NCBI RefSeq assembly: GCF_004078655.1 | Contig: NZ_RZNC01000001.1 | Coordinates: forward strand, 62,001-126,000 | DNA length: 64,000 nucleotides | Direction of reading: 5' to 3' | Source of the DNA: Labedella populi | GTDB lineage: Bacteria > Actinomycetota > Actinomycetes > Actinomycetales > Microbacteriaceae | Shown here: in pieces, positions 15,381 through 55,906 of the stretch | Position numbering within the stretch: position 1 is the stretch's first letter | Layout: each line of letters begins with the position of its first letter | Made by a program: the position numbers and the translations under genes | Notes under the pieces: generated by a model | Database searches by the model: none | What the model was told of the DNA's origin: nothing | The model's input: the letters and a program-made list of their open reading frames with translations, nothing else

Positions 15381-15878
15381 ATGACTACCGATGAGTGGGA
15401 AGCCGCGATCGCCCGACTGTGGACGGACGACACCCTCGCCGACGCGGCGCGACTCGAGAGTATGACGGCGCTCGCCGAGGCCTCTCCGCATCCGGCGCTC
15501 GGAGCGTTCGAGCTCGGTGGCGCCTTCGATTCGGCAGGGCACGAAGCCGAGGCCGACGCCCAGTACTCCGTGGCGACCGAAGCCGGATTGGGGGAGGTCG
15601 ACCCGAGCCGCGCAGCTCAACTCGTGATCCAGCACGCGTCGACCCTGAGAAATCTGGGTCGTATCGACGAGGCGATCACGATGCTCCGGGAGGCACCCGC
15701 CGACCCCTCGATCGGTGTCGCCCCCGCGGTGTTCCTCGCGCTCGCCCTCCACAGCGCGGGCCGCGTCGACGAGGCTCTCCGCGTCGCGATCGAGGCGATA
15801 GAACCGACCCTGCCCCGTTACAACCGTTCGGTTCGCGCCTATGCGGCGGCGCTCACGGGTGACCCGACCGACGAGTAA
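15381..15878 (+). CDS. Small TPR-repeat protein
   Basis: A 165-residue soluble protein made of helical pairs resembling tetratricopeptide repeats: ALGAFELGGAFDSAGHEAEADAQY, QHASTLRNLGRIDEAITMLRE and LALALHSAGRVDEALRVAIEA. Such proteins are small scaffolds, and this length is common in actinobacteria as a stand-alone TPR protein. It follows the XRE regulator after 50 bp but is probably independently expressed. Function is unknown. Confidence 0.75.
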   Translation: MTTDEWEAAIARLWTDDTLADAARLESMTALAEASPHPALGAFELGGAFDSAGHEAEADAQYSVATEAGLGEVDPSRAAQLVIQHASTLRNLGRIDEAITMLREAPADPSIGVAPAVFLALALHSAGRVDEALRVAIEAIEPTLPRYNRSVRAYAAALTGDPTDE

Positions 15879-15999
15879 TCGCGGGTACCTCGGGCCGTCG
15901 GTTTGAGTACGGGTCCGACGACGTCGGTACTCGGCGCGCTCAGGTCGCAAGTGCAGCGACGCCGTCGTGCGCGAGGGTCGGTGGGGCTCAAGCGCTTCA

Positions 16000-18237
16000 T
16001 CACCGATACGTGATCGCGTCGTTCTCCTGCCGACCACGCGGCCGACGCGAGGATCGCGCCTCCTCCACGCGACCGCGCGTCGACTGACTCTCACCGCGCT
16101 GCACCGCCCACATGTCCGCATAGAGCCCGCCCATCTCAATGAGTTCCGAGTGAGTGCCCTCCTCAACGATCCGTCCGGCCTCGACCACGAAGATCCGTTC
16201 GCATCGCATCACACTGGCCAGACGGTGGGCGATCATGATGACGGTCGCGCCGGGGAGCGAAGCCATGAGGTCATCGATCACGAGCGCCTCGGTCGATGCG
16301 TCGAGATCGCTCGTCACCTCGTCGAAGACGTACAGCGGCGACTCCTTGAGGAGCGCCCGAGCGAGCCCCAGTCGGCGTCGTTCGCCTCCCGACAACCCAG
16401 CCCCGGCCTCGTCGAGCACGGTACTCACACCGTGAGGAAGCGCCGCGACGAATTCATCGGCGTGGGACCGCTCGAGCGCTCGTCGGACCGCCCGCGGCGA
16501 GGCGTCGGGAACGGACAATCGGACGTTGTCCGCGACGGAACGCGAGTACAGCGAGACCTGCTGGGGAACGTAGGCGATGTGAGACCGGACATCCGCGGGC
16601 GAGATCCGTTCGAGCGGAATCCCGGATAGCGCGATACTGCCCTCGTCCGGTTCAACCACACGGAGCAGCAACTTCGCGATCGTGGACTTCCCCCCACCGC
16701 TCGGGCCGACGAAGGCGACACGCTCGCCCTCACGGATCGAGAAGGACAACTCCCGCAGCGCGGTGGCGCGACCGCGGTAGCCGAACGAGACCGAATCGAA
16801 CCGGACCCCGCCGCCATGATCGATCTCTGCAAAGCCCGACGACTCGCCTCCCTCGGGCTCGTAGTCGAGGATTTCCCCGACGCGCCGGAGCGCCATGCTC
16901 GCTTCCTGCCACTCGAGCTGCAGCCCGATCAGCCGGGAGACGGGATCGATGAAGAAGGCGCTCAGTGCGACGAAGGCCATAAGCGTTCCGAGTGTGAGGT
17001 CACCGTCGATGATGCGCGTCGTTCCGAAGAGGAGGAGGAGAAGCCCCGCGGCGGCCTGGAAGAGCGACATCAACGTCGATTGCCCGTTCTCCAGCATCCC
17101 TTCCCGGAAGGAGAAGCGGACGCTGCGGATGTACTCGCGCTCGACGCCCTCCATCTCTCTCGGTTCGAAGCCCTCGAGCTTGATGCCCTCCACACCGCGG
17201 AGCCCCTCGATGATGCGCGAATTGAGGACGGAAGCCTGCTGCATCTGCTCGCCGTTGACCGCACGGAACGGACGCAGGAACGCGACCACGAGGACGACCG
17301 AGACGATCACGAAGACGACGATGACGAGGAAGAGGGAGGCGTCGAGCGAGAACAGCACGGCTCCCGTGACGATCGCCATCACGGCATCGAGCACCGCCGA
17401 CAGGGCGGCGCCGGTCAGGACGTTCTTGACCGTCATGGCGTCGCCGAAGCGGGTGAGGATATCTCCCACGGGGCGCGAGTCGAAGAACCGGAACGGCATC
17501 CGGTAGACGTGCGCGAAGTAGCCGAGGATCAGCGGTACATCGATGCGTTGCGACAGGTGCAGGACGATCCACTGCCGGATGAACTGCACGGCGTGCTGCA
17601 CGACGTACATTCCGAGGAAGAGCACGCCGAGCGGGACGATGAGTGACTCGAGGCCGTAGGGGATGACCTCGTCGACGATGATCTTCGTGGCGAATGACGT
17701 GGCGATGCCGAGGACCGTGAGGATGAGGGAGCCGAGGATCGCCCAGAGGAAGAGCGCCCGGTGCGGGCGGAGGAGGCGGAGGAATCGCCCGACGGGACGG
17801 GACTGTGATCCGCCCGGCTCGAACGCGCGCGACGGGGCGAGCAGGACGAGTACCCCGGTGAAGCGTTCGAGGAAGTCGTCGACCGCGACCCAGCGCCGCC
17901 GCTTCTCCGCCGGATCGCCGATGAGGAGGCGCCGGGACGTGGCCCGGTGGATGACGACGAAGTGCGGATCGCCCGTTGACGTCGTCACGTGGGCGATCGC
18001 TGGTCGGGTGTAACTCGTCGTGAGCGCGTCCTCGCCGACCCTCACGACCTTCGCCTCGAACCCCAACTCGACTGCGCCTTCGACGAGTCCGCGGACCGAC
18101 ACGCCCCGAGCCGCCGTTCCCAGTGCGTCCCGCAATTGTGTGACCGACACGGTCTTCCCATGGGCCGCGCTGACCGCCGCGAGGCACGCGGCACCGCAGT
18201 CGGAGCTCTCGTTCTGGCGGACGTGCTGGCGGGTCAT
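16000..18237 (-). CDS. C39 peptidase-containing ABC transporter (bacteriocin export and leader cleavage)
   Basis: A 745-residue PCAT. The N-terminal C39 peptidase has its nucleophile at C14 (QNESSDCGAAC), the His in PHFVVIH and the Asp in IGDP. A six-helix membrane domain follows (about 165-440), then an ATPase domain with Walker A GPSGGGKST, signature LSGGERR and Walker B VFDEVTSDLD. It should cut double-glycine leaders and export the core peptide. ATG 18237, preceded by GAGAGAGGG, excludes 43 non-conserved upstream residues. It is the last gene of the operon, 61 bp after the adaptor gene. Confidence 0.92.
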   Translation of the reverse strand: MTRQHVRQNESSDCGAACLAAVSAAHGKTVSVTQLRDALGTAARGVSVRGLVEGAVELGFEAKVVRVGEDALTTSYTRPAIAHVTTSTGDPHFVVIHRATSRRLLIGDPAEKRRRWVAVDDFLERFTGVLVLLAPSRAFEPGGSQSRPVGRFLRLLRPHRALFLWAILGSLILTVLGIATSFATKIIVDEVIPYGLESLIVPLGVLFLGMYVVQHAVQFIRQWIVLHLSQRIDVPLILGYFAHVYRMPFRFFDSRPVGDILTRFGDAMTVKNVLTGAALSAVLDAVMAIVTGAVLFSLDASLFLVIVVFVIVSVVLVVAFLRPFRAVNGEQMQQASVLNSRIIEGLRGVEGIKLEGFEPREMEGVEREYIRSVRFSFREGMLENGQSTLMSLFQAAAGLLLLLFGTTRIIDGDLTLGTLMAFVALSAFFIDPVSRLIGLQLEWQEASMALRRVGEILDYEPEGGESSGFAEIDHGGGVRFDSVSFGYRGRATALRELSFSIREGERVAFVGPSGGGKSTIAKLLLRVVEPDEGSIALSGIPLERISPADVRSHIAYVPQQVSLYSRSVADNVRLSVPDASPRAVRRALERSHADEFVAALPHGVSTVLDEAGAGLSGGERRRLGLARALLKESPLYVFDEVTSDLDASTEALVIDDLMASLPGATVIMIAHRLASVMRCERIFVVEAGRIVEEGTHSELIEMGGLYADMWAVQRGESQSTRGRVEEARSSRRPRGRQENDAITYR

Positions 18238-18298
18238 CGGTGGGATCCCTCTCTCGTGGTCGTCATGGTCGTCGTGTCGGAGGCGGGCGGGCGCGACC

Positions 18299-19420
18299 TC
18301 AGGGGGAGAACCCGGCGAGCTCCTGGGCGTACTCGAGGTAGGTGACCTCGTCGCGCACGAGGTCAACGGTGATGGTCGTCCCGTTGATCAGATCGTGCTC
18401 GGCGCCGTCGCGCGTGCGGACGACGTCGTCGTCGAGCGCCAGGTGCACCACGAAGTAGTTGGCCGTCTCCGTCCCGTCGATCGGCATCGCCGTCACGTCG
18501 GCGTCGATGGAGACGACGCGGCCACTGAGCTTCTCGTACTCGACGGCGGGGAGACCCTCCACCGAGACGGTCGCCCGATCCCCCACCTCGACGTGTTGCC
18601 GATCCGGCACGGACAGGTAGACGCTCACGTCGAGCCCCTCCTCCGTCGACGCCACGGAGCCGATCCGGTCTCCGGCCGTGACGACGCTCCCCACCTGCAC
18701 GCCCTCGTCGAGGTGGACCGTTCCGGAGACGGGCGCGGTGATCTGGAAGGCGCTCTCCCCGGTGCTCGCCGCGCGACCACGAATGTCGATCTCCGCGATC
18801 TGCTGACGGATCTGGGTCTCCTCCGCCGACGACTCGCTCAAGGCCGTCGAGTCGAGTTCCTCCGCCTTCAACGCGTTGTCGGCGATGGCGCCGTCGATCT
18901 CCACGGGTGTGTACCCGAGCGCTTCGAGGCTCTCGCGGCTCACGATCAGCTGGTCCTTCTGTTTCTGCAGCGAGTCGAACTGCCAGTAGAAGGCCGCCTC
19001 GTCGGCGACGTCCTGCCGGAAGGAGTTCTCGCCGTCGCGCACGGCCTGCGAGAAGCGAGACTGAAGGTCCAGTTCCTTCTCGAGGAGGGCCTTCTGGGCC
19101 GCGACGGTGTCCTTCTCCGCCTGAAGTTCGAGGCTCTCGACCGCGACGACGCGCGCTCCCGCCTCGACCCTCGAGCCGTTCGGTGCGTCGACCGCGGCGA
19201 TGCGACCCGAGACGCTCGCCATCACGACCGTGCGGTTGGCTCCTTCGATGACGCCGACCCCCTCGATGAGGCTCGGTCGCATGGTCACCGACGACCAGAG
19301 GACCACCGCGACGATCGCACCCGCGGTGAGCGCGAGGAGGAGGAGTCCGAAGAGAGGCGGCCGCTTCTCGTAGAGGATCCGACTGTCGGTGAGGCTGTCG
19401 AGGTCGACGATGCGCGTCAT
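18299..19420 (-). CDS. HlyD-type secretion adaptor of the bacteriocin exporter
   Basis: A 373-residue membrane-fusion-like protein. It has one membrane anchor (residues about 20-45, PPLFGLLLLALTAGAIVAVVL truncated here), a lipoyl-like half (SVSGRIAAVDAPNGSRVEAG), a coiled-coil hairpin (about 95-190), the second half (ITAPVSGTVHLDEGVQVGSVV) and a beta-barrel. It is the LcnD/MesE-type accessory factor that works with C39 ABC exporters of Gram-positive bacteria. Its ATG overlaps the stop of the preceding gene (ATGA, 19417-19420). Confidence 0.88.
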   Translation of the reverse strand: MTRIVDLDSLTDSRILYEKRPPLFGLLLLALTAGAIVAVVLWSSVTMRPSLIEGVGVIEGANRTVVMASVSGRIAAVDAPNGSRVEAGARVVAVESLELQAEKDTVAAQKALLEKELDLQSRFSQAVRDGENSFRQDVADEAAFYWQFDSLQKQKDQLIVSRESLEALGYTPVEIDGAIADNALKAEELDSTALSESSAEETQIRQQIAEIDIRGRAASTGESAFQITAPVSGTVHLDEGVQVGSVVTAGDRIGSVASTEEGLDVSVYLSVPDRQHVEVGDRATVSVEGLPAVEYEKLSGRVVSIDADVTAMPIDGTETANYFVVHLALDDDVVRTRDGAEHDLINGTTITVDLVRDEVTYLEYAQELAGFSP

Positions 19421-19926
19421 GGCTCGCGCGAGACCGCCGGCGCGAAGGCGTCGACCTCGACGGACGTTCCGTCCTCGCCGGCGAAGACGAGGTAGACCGT
19501 CCCGTCGAGCTCGATCTCGTTCTCGTAGGCGAAGACGTTGATCTTGCTGTACACGACATCGAGGTCGGAGACGTCGCCACGGAACCGGACCAGGATGCAA
19601 TCGGTCACCTCGACGCGCGGCTCGACTTCGACGTCCGGCGGAAGATCGGCGGGGGACAGAGGCGTCTCCGACTGACGCATGAGCGCCGTCTCGTGCGCGA
19701 CGACGTGGTCCTCGTTCGCTCTCGGGGTGAGTCGCTGGACGAGGGGACCTCTCGGCGTCCCTCCGCTGTCGCGGATATCCCGCACGAGCGCGACCGCCGT
19801 GTCGCGGACATGGCCCGGATCCAGCGCACGTATCCGTCGCCGCACGACGTTCTCGAGTACGAGTGTGCGCGGGTACTCGGTGCCGATCGTTCTTCTCATC
19901 TCGTGTCGGTGTCGCTTCCGCGACAC
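19417..19926 (-). CDS. Bacteriocin-operon protein with GyrI-like effector-binding domain
   Basis: A 169-residue protein that I do not find in standard bacteriocin gene sets. The C-terminal half (about 105-165) has the layout of a GyrI/BmrR-type effector-binding domain: a strand DCILVRFRGDV, a region ending YENEIELDGTVYLVF and a last strand VEVDAFAPAV. The N-terminal half is basic and helical. GTG 19926 was preferred because GAGAGGA stands just before it; ATG 19899 is nine codons inside. It lies between the peptide gene and the adaptor gene and is coupled to the latter, so it may be a sensor, chaperone or immunity component. Confidence 0.7.
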   Translation of the reverse strand: MSRKRHRHEMRRTIGTEYPRTLVLENVVRRRIRALDPGHVRDTAVALVRDIRDSGGTPRGPLVQRLTPRANEDHVVAHETALMRQSETPLSPADLPPDVEVEPRVEVTDCILVRFRGDVSDLDVVYSKINVFAYENEIELDGTVYLVFAGEDGTSVEVDAFAPAVSREP

Positions 19927-19975
19927 TCGTCCTCTCGTCGCAGCGGTAGGGGGAACGGGGGACGGGCAACGCGTT

Positions 19976-19990
19976 CGGGCGCGCCGCCCG
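19976..19990 (-). terminator. Hairpin between bacteriocin gene and the rest of the operon
   Basis: CGGGCG and CGCCCG form a perfect 6-bp stem with a 3-nt loop, starting 10 nt after the stop codon of the peptide gene. There is no T tract. In class II bacteriocin operons a leaky hairpin at this point lets the peptide be expressed above the export genes; that role is inferred here. Confidence 0.4.
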
Positions 19991-20000
19991 CCCCGAGGTG

Positions 20001-20303
20001 CTAGATCATCGAGTAGAACTTGTTCTCGAACCCGGCCATGATGAACGGGCTGCCGGCGGGGGACATGCCGGCGACCGCCCCGCGGACCTGCCACTTGATC
20101 TTCTGGTAGGTCTTGTTGCGCAGGCCGGCGTGGTAGGCGCGCTCGCCGGCGGCCATGCCTCCGGCGTACAGGCTTCCTCCGATTCCGAGAGCGCCGCCGA
20201 TGATGCCGATAACCGCGATGGCGCCGATGCCGCCGTCGATGCCGTCCAGTTCGTCGTTCGGGACGTCTCGATACGTGGTGGGCATCTCCAGAACCATGGA
20301 CAT
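20001..20303 (-). CDS. Double-glycine-leader bacteriocin precursor
   Basis: A 100-residue peptide. The leader (residues 1-25) ends ELDGIDGG and fits the EL-x-x-I-x-GG consensus cut by C39 peptidases, giving a 75-residue core. The core begins with a Gly-rich hydrophobic stretch with GxxxG spacing (IGAIAVIGIIGGALGIGG) and continues with a basic part (AYHAGLRNKTYQKIKWQVRG) and a hydrophobic end. The start is supported by AAGGAGGT at about 20310-20317. It heads the operon with the GyrI-like, adaptor and exporter genes. The core has no cysteine, so neither lanthionine nor disulfide formation is expected. Confidence 0.85.
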   Translation of the reverse strand: MSMVLEMPTTYRDVPNDELDGIDGGIGAIAVIGIIGGALGIGGSLYAGGMAAGERAYHAGLRNKTYQKIKWQVRGAVAGMSPAGSPFIMAGFENKFYSMI

Positions 20304-20371
20304 GTAAGTACCTCCTTGTTCGGATGCGGGCACCGGGCGGCGCCTGCGTGACCCGACGGTAGTTGCTCTTC

Positions 20372-20415
20372 TCCACACCCGCTCGGAGTTTCCACATAGA
20401 TACGTTTTCTGTGGA
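20372..20415. promoter_or_regulatory. TCCACA repeats in the divergent bacteriocin promoter region
   Basis: TCCACA occurs at 20372-20377 and 20391-20396, and its inverse TGTGGA at 20410-20415. The copies are 19 nt apart each, about two DNA turns. The third copy overlaps a possible -35 (GTGGAC) that pairs at 18 nt with GATACT (20435-20440), the likely -10 of the divergent membrane-protein gene. This looks like a regulator-binding array; the regulator is not known. Confidence 0.4.
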
Positions 20416-20447
20416 CAGATTCTTCCGGGCGAGCGATACTGGCGTGC

Positions 20448-20885
20448 ATGAATAGATACTCGTCCGCATCCCGCGATTCGGGCTCCGGCACCCTCGAGCC
20501 CCCGCCGCATGACGCGCGTCCCACTGTCGCGCGAGGCGACGTGTCGCCGCTCGGACGCGCGTCGCTCGGAGCTCTCTTCGCCGCGGTGATCGTCAGCGCA
20601 CCGGGGCTCACCGAGGCGTACGCCAGCGCCATCGCGATCGGCTTCTCCAGCCTGGCACTCGCGCTCGTCGAGTCCACCCGGCCCACCGCGACCCGTCCAC
20701 CCGGCCTTCCACGACGACGGCGCGTGGCTCCGGCGCTCGTCGCGAGCGTGGCCGTCTTCATCGCGGCTTTCGCCGCATCCTTCGCGGCCGCTGCGGCAGG
20801 GAGTCGCGATCTGAGCACCGCCATCGCCGGAGCGGCGTTCATCTTGCTGTTCCCGCTGATCTGGCTCGACGAGCGGTCCCGCTGA
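20448..20885 (+). CDS. Small four-helix membrane protein, candidate immunity protein
   Basis: A 145-residue protein with a hydrophilic N-terminus and about four membrane helices (residues about 38-56, 59-76, 92-115, 121-140) separated by an Arg/Pro-rich loop (PPGLPRRRRVAP). It is divergent from the bacteriocin peptide gene. A possible -10 (GATACT) ends seven bases before the ATG, so the transcript may be leaderless. Many bacteriocin immunity proteins are small membrane proteins next to the peptide gene, which makes this a candidate; the sequence itself does not prove it. Confidence 0.65.
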   Translation: MNRYSSASRDSGSGTLEPPPHDARPTVARGDVSPLGRASLGALFAAVIVSAPGLTEAYASAIAIGFSSLALALVESTRPTATRPPGLPRRRRVAPALVASVAVFIAAFAASFAAAAAGSRDLSTAIAGAAFILLFPLIWLDERSR

Positions 20886-20931
20886 TCCGGGATGGCGTGA
20901 GGTGAGCGCACCGACTCCCTAGGCTGATCTC

Positions 20932-21891
20932 ATGCGCGGCTTCTACCCCGAGATCGAACCGTACGACACCGGCATGCTCGACGTCGGCGACGGCCAGCAG
21001 CTCTACTGGGAGGAGTCGGGCAACCCGGACGGCAAACCCGTCGTTTTCCTCCACGGCGGACCGGGCGGCGGCACGAACGCCAATCAGCGCCGCGTCTTCG
21101 ACCCCTCGAAGTACCGCATCGTGCTCTTCGATCAGCGCGGCTGCGGGCGCAGCACCCCGCACGCGAGTGAGAATCTTGATCTCTCCGCGAACACGACGTG
21201 GCACTCCGTCGTGGACATCGAGCGGCTCCGCGAGGCGCGCGGCATCGATCGCTGGCAGGTGTTCGGTGGCTCCTGGGGCAGCGCACTCGCGCTCGCCTAC
21301 GCCGAAACGCACCCGGAGCGCGTGACCGAGATCGTCCTCCGCGGCATCTTCACGCTGCGCCAGAGCGAGCTCGACTGGTTCTACGAGGGCGGCGCGGGCG
21401 CGATCCTCCCCGACCGGTGGGAGGGGTTCGTCGCCCCGGTGCCGGAGAACGAGCGGCGGTCGCTCATCTCCGCGTACCACCGGCTGCTCAACCACCCGGA
21501 TCCCGCGATCCACGGGCCGGCCGCCGTGGCCTGGTCGGGCTGGGAGGCCGCGGCCATCACGCTCATCCCGCGCGAAGACCTCATCGACACGTTCACCGAG
21601 CCCGCCTACGCGCTCGCGTTCGCACGCATCGAGAACCACTACTTCGTGAACAAGGGCTGGTTCGAACCGGAACAGCTGATCCGCGATGCGCCGAAGCTCC
21701 GCGACATCCCGGGCGTCATCATCCAGGGCCGCTACGACCTCTGCACCCCGGCATTCACCGCGTGGGACCTGCACCGCGCGTGGCCCGAAGCCGAACTGCA
21801 CATGATTCCGGATGCCGGTCACGCCTTCGACGAGCCGGGCATCCTCGACGCCCTCGTCACCGCGACGGACCGCTTCGCCAACCGCCCGTAA
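20932..21891 (+). CDS. pip: Proline iminopeptidase
   Basis: A 319-residue alpha/beta-hydrolase of the S33 family that removes N-terminal proline from peptides. Visible are the oxyanion-hole region LHGGPGGG, DQRGCGRSTPH, the nucleophile elbow GGSWGS, the catalytic Asp in GRYDLCTP and the His in DAGHAFDEPG. Length and the WFYEGGAGAILPD cap segment match Pip enzymes. It is monocistronic, 46 bp after the small membrane protein. Confidence 0.93.
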   Translation: MRGFYPEIEPYDTGMLDVGDGQQLYWEESGNPDGKPVVFLHGGPGGGTNANQRRVFDPSKYRIVLFDQRGCGRSTPHASENLDLSANTTWHSVVDIERLREARGIDRWQVFGGSWGSALALAYAETHPERVTEIVLRGIFTLRQSELDWFYEGGAGAILPDRWEGFVAPVPENERRSLISAYHRLLNHPDPAIHGPAAVAWSGWEAAAITLIPREDLIDTFTEPAYALAFARIENHYFVNKGWFEPEQLIRDAPKLRDIPGVIIQGRYDLCTPAFTAWDLHRAWPEAELHMIPDAGHAFDEPGILDALVTATDRFANRP

Positions 21892-55021: not shown

Positions 55022-55906
55022 ATGTTTATGTCCATCCCCCCTCCTGCATCCCCCCAGCCTGGCCCGAACCAGCACTCCAACCCGAACCAGCACTCCAACC
55101 CGAACCAGCAGCAGCCGTGGCAGCAGCAGCCCTACCCGCTCACCGCCGCGACCCAGCAGATGCCGCCCCAGATGGGTGGCCCCGCCTGGACGCCACCGCC
55201 CGGCCAGGCGAAGAAGCCCGCCACCTTCGCGATCATCGCGCTCGTCGTCGGAATCATCGCGTTCCTCACGGGACTCGTCCCCGTCCTCGGCATCCTCCTC
55301 GGTGCCGCTGGTATCGCGCTCGGCATCATCGCGCTCATCAAGAAGCAGTCCAAGGGCATGGCGATAGTCGCAATCGTGTTCAGTGGGCTCGCGTTCATCG
55401 CCTCGGGCAGCACCACCGCCGCACTCGGAACCATCGCCGGAAACGCCGACTCGCAGTCGGCACCCGTCCCCATTGAAACCACCGAGCCGACCGAAGCCGC
55501 CGAAGAGCCCGCCGAGGTCGTCGAAGAGCCTGCCGTCGTCGAGGAGACCGAGGAACCCGCTGCGCCCGCCCCCGAGCCGGAGCCGGAGGAGCCCTCCGTG
55601 CCGGCCGAGTACACGTCCGCTCTGTCGAAGGCAGGCACCTACTCCGACCTCATGTACATGAGCAAGGCCGGCATCTACGACCAGCTCACGAGCGAATACG
55701 GTGAGCAGTTCTCCGCGGAAGCCGCGCAGTACGCCATCGACAACGTGAAGGCTGACTGGAACGCGAACGCCCTCGAGAAGGCGAAGAGCTACCAGGACAC
55801 CATGTCGATGTCGCCCGCCGCCATCTACGACCAGCTCATCAGCGAGTACGGCGAGAAGTTCCTCCCGTCCGAGGCCGACTACGCGATCGCCCACCTCAAC
55901 GACTAG
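55022..55906 (+). CDS. Ltp-like membrane protein with DUF4190-type anchor
   Basis: A 294-residue surface protein. An N-terminal Pro/Gln/Asn-rich part includes a direct repeat (NQHSNPNQHSNPNQ). Two to three membrane helices follow (about 65-140, FAIIALVVGIIAFLTGLVP; DUF4190-like), then a Glu/Pro-rich spacer and two C-terminal Ltp-type repeats of about 45 residues, each with the YSDLMYMSKAGIYDQL / YQDTMSMSPAAIYDQL pattern. The repeat family (host cell surface-exposed lipoprotein) includes a phage protein that blocks entry of other phages. Start ATG follows GAGGAA. Confidence 0.85.
   Translation: MFMSIPPPASPQPGPNQHSNPNQHSNPNQQQPWQQQPYPLTAATQQMPPQMGGPAWTPPPGQAKKPATFAIIALVVGIIAFLTGLVPVLGILLGAAGIALGIIALIKKQSKGMAIVAIVFSGLAFIASGSTTAALGTIAGNADSQSAPVPIETTEPTEAAEEPAEVVEEPAVVEETEEPAAPAPEPEPEEPSVPAEYTSALSKAGTYSDLMYMSKAGIYDQLTSEYGEQFSAEAAQYAIDNVKADWNANALEKAKSYQDTMSMSPAAIYDQLISEYGEKFLPSEADYAIAHLND

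Follow-up and report, generated by a model that had tools for sequence, protein, structure and literature searches.

The 64,000-nucleotide (nt) stretch of the Labedella populi genome analysed here (contig NZ_RZNC01000001.1; hereafter the window) carries a compact five-gene cassette that is likely to make a bacteriocin of the class II type, that is, a ribosomally made and unmodified peptide, from a family absent from the searched libraries and with two modes of export. The preliminary description of this DNA had named a peptide of 100 residues, a protein of 169 residues, an HlyD-type adaptor, an ATP-binding cassette (ABC) exporter with a C39 peptidase domain and a divergent membrane protein, and all five were present: four genes lie on the minus strand (16000–20303), transcribed in the order peptide, 169-residue protein (hereafter the orphan protein), HlyD adaptor and exporter, and one lies divergently on the plus strand (20448–20885). 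Its call of a bacteriocin-type operon was borne out by the leader motif, the C39 exporter domains and the HlyD protein, and the host it proposed, one of the Microbacteriaceae, agrees with the genome, which belongs to the genus Labedella in that family. The claim of a new family stood in part: the peptide and its core pass no Pfam or NCBIfam curated cut-off, but the core is not an orphan and recurs in seven other Microbacteriaceae genomes. The expected co-occurrence of the core with its four neighbours was not found: the other genomes have a Sec-like N-terminus (deleted at one locus) and a partner with two transmembrane (TM) segments. Since the core occurs in these seven genomes without a match to the C39 domain, HlyD adaptor or orphan protein in the 16 kb examined per locus, the family is defined by the core and a small membrane protein. 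The C39/HlyD/orphan combination turned up in two Labedella species alone.

The leader of the precursor peptide ends in ...VPNDELDGIDGG, which matches the Glu-8/Leu-7 consensus before the double glycine. The leader consensus reported for ComA consists of Leu-12, Glu-8 and Leu-7 followed by the double glycine (excerpts of PMC6363468), and position −12 is Val rather than Leu in the window peptide. Tested for chance occurrence, the motif [VLIM]xxxELxx[VIL]xG[GAS] was found in 1 of the 498 window open reading frames (ORFs) of at least 40 residues and arose in 10 cases when the peptide was shuffled 20000 times. The core starts IGAIAV and has 75 residues, including 15 Gly, one Trp and no Cys, with a net charge of about +4.8 and an isoelectric point of about 10; its calculated average mass, if unmodified, is about 7,692 Da. 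No relatives of the core were detected in plasmids (searched with the window peptide), viral contigs or solved structures, and the best match of the peptide in PHROGs was a holin family (E 0.27). Searches of open-licence literature gave no paper with any of four core motifs and no title on the core family.

The exporter passed the Pfam cut-offs for Peptidase_C39 (PF03412, 1.9e-29), ABC_membrane (PF00664, 7.9e-37) and ABC_tran (PF00005, 8.1e-29), and inspection by eye showed the motifs DCGAAC, HFVV, GDPA, GPSGGGKST, LSGGE and FDE. The adaptor matched Pfam HlyD_3 (PF13437) at 9.9e-15 and 55.6 bits, over the cut-off of 22.2, and scored 49.2 bits against TIGR01000 (cut-off 258.85). Relatives of the adaptor were found in the two Labedella alone among 396 genomes of the family and in its own genome alone among 364 of the class, in searches that scored up to five candidates per genome and from which distant HlyD proteins can escape. 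Among plasmids, five records matched the adaptor (23–30% identity across 34–53% of the query) and 4418 matched the exporter at E ≤1e-20; the best of the latter, from Bacillus arachidis, was 35% identical and has an adjoining HlyD gene and no annotated gene at the position of the orphan gene.

The orphan protein, which the preliminary description had singled out as an unusual extra gene, indeed had no relative found beyond Labedella phragmitis: the two Labedella were its only carriers among 398 genomes of the family, the genome contigs yielded L. phragmitis only, and plasmids, viral contigs and solved structures yielded nothing. It also had no match over the cut-offs in Pfam or NCBIfam. The protein lacks a TM-like stretch, with a best 17-residue hydropathy of 0.72.

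The peptide search matched 10 of 398 genomes of the family, from which three weak matches (G185, G091 and G298; E 8e-5 to 3e-4) were dropped. In G185 and G091 there was no called ORF matching at 1e-3, and the ORF in G298 (E 3e-5, 30% over 66 residues) lacks the KW and FENxFY positions. Searches of two genera matched 3 of 7 genomes, all already known, and 4 of 16, two of them new. In total, ten loci in nine genomes were obtained, namely the two Labedella loci of the double-glycine type and eight others in seven genomes (hereafter Sec-type loci). Presence is patchy: three genera had carriers in 2 of 4, 3 of 7 and 4 of 16 genomes, respectively. When 396 genomes of the order were searched with a profile, only the window's own genome matched; the other known carriers lie outside that sample, so it does not firmly bound the range of the family. 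The non-Labedella cores are 31–61% identical to the window core, with L018 near-identical to L017, and seven aligned cores (alignment A2) share 17 invariant columns, including AGL, Y, KW, R, FEN and FY.

The N-termini of the Sec-type precursors are of another kind. Seven of the eight start with basic residues followed by a hydrophobic segment ending in small residues, which by eye resembles a Sec signal peptide, and then have about 24–35 variable residues that appear to be a pro-region. At the eighth locus (L038, 7903–8265), the peptide gene is missing the signal peptide end, the pro-region and the beginning of the core, and the hairpin gene that follows it is open. At six credible non-Labedella places, matches to the window peptide start at residues 22–29, the double glycine being residues 24–25. 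Because homology starts within four residues of the Labedella processing site, a leader swap is suggested. None of the eight Sec-type loci, examined over 16 kb each, contained a match (E 1e-3) to the C39 domain, HlyD adaptor or orphan protein; three showed matches of the ATPase domain to other ABC genes only.

All eight Sec-type loci possess an ORF of 67–106 residues with two TM segments whose start lies at −4 or +2 nt relative to the end of the peptide stop codon. These hairpins form one family, since a profile made with each one held out ranked it first in all eight cases (E 2e-5 to 7e-13). By the same rule, none of 184 other called ORFs had such a partner versus 6 of the 6 peptides given (L037 and L038 not included). 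Pfam searches with six of the eight hairpins returned only matches below cut-off, to unrelated families. By position and pattern, the coupled hairpin is the obvious immunity candidate. Direct repeats of 31–185 base pairs (bp), 87–99% identical, flank the peptide-hairpin pair in four of the eight loci, and these look as if the pair had arrived with duplication of a piece of a neighbouring gene. The enrichment is modest: among controls, such a repeat accompanied 2 of 50 window stretches (one repeat counted both times) and, within the same loci, 6 of 32 other stretches, four of the six at about 70% identity. The window also holds a 45-bp direct repeat at 55667–55861, 87% identical, with starts 150 bp apart.

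The divergent protein passed no Pfam cut-off, and its gene was present in L. phragmitis (G003) and in none of five other genomes searched (G001, G002, G217, G265 and G052). It looks like two hairpins of the kind found in the Sec-type partners, and its second half scored better against the hairpin family than 200 shuffles. With L037 held out of the profile, the divergent protein came second with 16.0 bits, and with L017 or L018 held out, the L. phragmitis exporter scored 15.6 bits. It is a candidate immunity protein carried with the cassette.

Comparison within Labedella located the insertion site. In L. phragmitis the complete set of five genes occupies the same site, and the encoded proteins are 93–100% identical to those of the window. 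The site lies between genes named by eye as an XRE-type regulator and a prolyl aminopeptidase, and it lacks the cassette in two other genomes of the genus: in G001 the matches to the flanking genes lie about 65 bp apart, and in G002 a gap of about 745 bp holds other small ORFs. The peptide and orphan genes were not found elsewhere in either genome. Of the repeat families listed, namely the 20 largest direct ones and the 25 longest inverted ones, none was terminal to the cassette, and blastn detected no direct repeat at its ends. The ORFs in G002 (L046, 11940–12685) resemble small membrane proteins by eye and stand at the cassette position of the carriers, which suggests a possible hot spot for insertion. 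An ORF that looks tetratricopeptide-like by eye (window 15381–15878) lies between the regulator and the cassette; nothing in the corresponding part of L. phragmitis matches it, and the site therefore varies on the left too.

Between positions 17,000 and 21,000, the 200-bp bins are 96–100% identical to L. phragmitis, whereas the flanks are mostly at 80–92%. Left-flank bins range from 81 to 90.5%, or from 71 to 90.5% when the bins at 15,400–15,993, a segment absent from L. phragmitis, are counted, and right-flank bins from 66 to 99%. The left identity break falls inside the exporter gene, close to where the membrane part meets the ATPase part. Of the 303 bases of the peptide gene, one differs, leaving the protein identical. 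Synonymous divergence (dS) was 0.01–0.05 in the peptide, orphan, HlyD and divergent genes versus 0.23–0.64 in three flanking genes. Because a tract of about 4 kb is nearly identical while its flanks and the synonymous sites of the flanking genes have diverged far more, we read the cassette as recently exchanged by recombination between two Labedella lineages. Synonymous exceeded non-synonymous divergence (dN) in all four cassette genes compared, which for the orphan, HlyD and divergent genes rests on few changes (9, 18 and 9, respectively). The exporter was left out of this comparison because a 3-nt length difference puts it out of register.

A strong Shine–Dalgarno sequence, AAGGAGG, precedes the peptide gene, and the region of the stem-loop after the peptide stop codon (118 nt) folds at −53.4 kcal/mol (z −2.59), with 3 of 200 shuffles equally stable. 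No terminator-like site was found at this stem-loop, which is possibly an attenuator or a 3′ stabiliser and would favour expression of the peptide over the exporter. The orphan gene could start from GTG behind GAGAGG or from ATG 27 nt further on, and it overlaps the start of the HlyD gene by 4 nt. An imperfect inverted repeat poor in G+C, CCACAGAAAACGTATCTATGTGG, lies at 20392–20414, upstream of the peptide gene; a single base of it differs in L. phragmitis, and it is a possible operator.

Table 1 Positions of the cassette features in the window and of the direct repeats flanking the peptide-hairpin pair in Sec-type loci
Feature	Position	Strand	Description
Precursor peptide gene	20001..20303	-	100 residues: 25-residue double-glycine leader and 75-residue core
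Leader segment	20229..20303	-	MSMVLEMPTTYRDVPNDELDGIDGG; Val-12, Glu-8, Leu-7, Ile-4, Gly-2, Gly-1
Stem-loop 3′ of peptide stop	19959..19994	-	15 pairs, G+C-rich, no T run
Orphan protein gene	19417..19926	-	169 residues from GTG or 160 residues from ATG at 19899
HlyD-type adaptor gene	18299..19420	-	373 residues; Pfam HlyD_3
C39-peptidase ABC exporter gene	16000..18237	-	745 residues; Pfam domains
Divergent membrane protein gene	20448..20885	+	145 residues, four predicted TM segments
Cassette, approximate extent	15993..20895	.	Comparison with G001 and G002 sites
Tract highly identical to L. phragmitis	17000..21000	.	96–100% per 200-bp bin
Flanking direct repeat pair	L019 6687–6871 and 8358–8542
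Flanking direct repeat pair	L015 7621–7730 and 8642–8745		Left copy is 3′ end of hairpin gene
Flanking direct repeat pair	L038 7460–7644 and 8227–8410
Flanking direct repeat pair	L037 7510–7540 and 8331–8361

Among known systems, the cassette is most readily compared with class II bacteriocins that use a double-glycine leader, a C39 exporter and an HlyD protein. It shares with them the Glu-8/Leu-7 leader motif, an ABC exporter with an N-terminal C39 peptidase, the adaptor and a small Cys-free core, and no peptide-modifying enzyme was recognised by Pfam or NCBIfam among the five proteins, of which the orphan protein is without an assigned function. It differs from them in a core that passes no Pfam or NCBIfam cut-off, in the core length of 75 residues, in the orphan protein and in its actinobacterial host. 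A cysteine pair is a feature of class IIa (pediocin-like) bacteriocins, and the window core contains no Cys and no YGNGV motif; its length, its hosts and the pro-region of the Sec-type forms also set the family apart from that class. What the two have in common is the use of two export routes for one core family. Excerpts of PMC3546714 give YGNGV as the class IIa hallmark and describe export of that one core family by either a double-glycine leader with an ABC exporter or a Sec signal peptide, the latter in bacteriocin 31, enterocin P, enterocin SE-K4, listeriocin 743A and hiracin JM79. The aureocin A53-like bacteriocins of Actinomycetota, as presented in excerpts of PMC11580447, are likewise small cationic peptides, some of them in Microbacterium, Curtobacterium and Frondihabitans, but they are leaderless with a mean length of 50, and aureocin A53 has five Trp. 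The window peptide has a double-glycine leader and a single core Trp, its Sec-type relatives have a signal peptide by eye, and it does not belong to that group.

The sequence suggests a cassette that probably serves to produce an antibacterial peptide, to export it and to resist it. The C39 domain would recognise the precursor via the ELxxIxGG leader and cut after the double glycine, and the ABC exporter and HlyD adaptor would pump out a cationic, hydrophobic and probably helical peptide of 75 residues, which may then insert into the membranes of related actinobacteria. Protection of the producer would most likely fall to the divergent four-TM protein, and the orphan protein, translated in step with HlyD, would most likely help export or maturation. 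The core would be a mobile module with two N-termini, a double-glycine leader in Labedella and a Sec-like signal with a pro-region in other genera, where the translationally coupled hairpin would serve as the immunity protein. Two export modes for one core, as known for class IIa, are the best reading of the loci. We put forward only tentatively that the swap of N-termini at the processing site also changes immunity, from a coupled hairpin to a divergent double hairpin, and recruits the orphan protein as an export subunit new to C39 systems.

Several results weigh against this interpretation. Residues 16–53 of the peptide, the leader end and the start of the core, weakly match TIGR03949 (lactobin A/cerein 7B, class IIb) at 15.1 bits, short of the cut-off of 21.5, and none of the seven cores in alignment A2 matches it on its own. 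The structure model of the peptide is poor, with a predicted local distance difference test (pLDDT) score of 53, and the best NCBIfam match of the exporter, TIGR01193, reached 490.5 bits, below the cut-off of 523.85. The core of L020 has a net charge of −1.1 and four other Sec-type cores have +1.1 to +1.9, so the strong cationicity of the window core is not a rule of the family. The core tree contains a single supported fork and gives the window core no placement, so it does not show which leader came first. Against a real background of 185 two-TM segments and three entries of its own, the second half of the divergent protein ranked third (10.2 bits), behind a segment of the L. phragmitis exporter (entered twice, 13.0), with the whole protein 49th and the first half 75th, so these scores do not establish its homology to the hairpin family.

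The immunity protein could instead be the orphan protein, although we regard this as unlikely. Immunity genes often sit directly after the bacteriocin peptide gene, as the orphan gene does, and it was found only together with the cassette. However, its 4-nt overlap with the HlyD gene points to probable expression with the exporter, its hydropathy maximum indicates no TM segment, and no match to it was obtained at any of the eight Sec-type loci, each of which has a membrane partner. Less probable still is a secreted peptide that acts as a signal or at the surface rather than against bacteria, with the membrane partner as its receptor or anchor. C39 exporters carry quorum peptides too (excerpts of PMC6363468), and a two-TM partner could serve as a receptor. 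Against this, the cassette contains no kinase or regulator, the XRE-type flanking gene being shared with cassette-free genomes. A core of 75 residues is also long for a pheromone, and the patchy, exchanged pattern of core and membrane partner better fits toxin and immunity. That the operon is decayed and silent seems improbable, given the intact frames in two species, the identical peptide and the low dN relative to dS in the orphan, HlyD and divergent genes. A GyrI-like, ligand-binding orphan protein acting as a sensor or resistance factor, an idea from a by-eye impression of two beta-alpha-beta-beta halves, was rejected as very improbable, because a PF06445 search of its own genome did not list the protein, its GyrI profile comparison (12.5) fell under the best of 60 shuffles (17.2) and its structure model has a pLDDT of 35.

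If the cassette and its relatives are read as class II-type bacteriocin loci, the cores and the membrane proteins paired with them, which occur in only some species of three genera, are testable toxin/immunity pairs. With the apparent leader swap found in nature, one can test directly how far the export route and immunity are linked, and C39 exporters may have a new accessory in the orphan protein.

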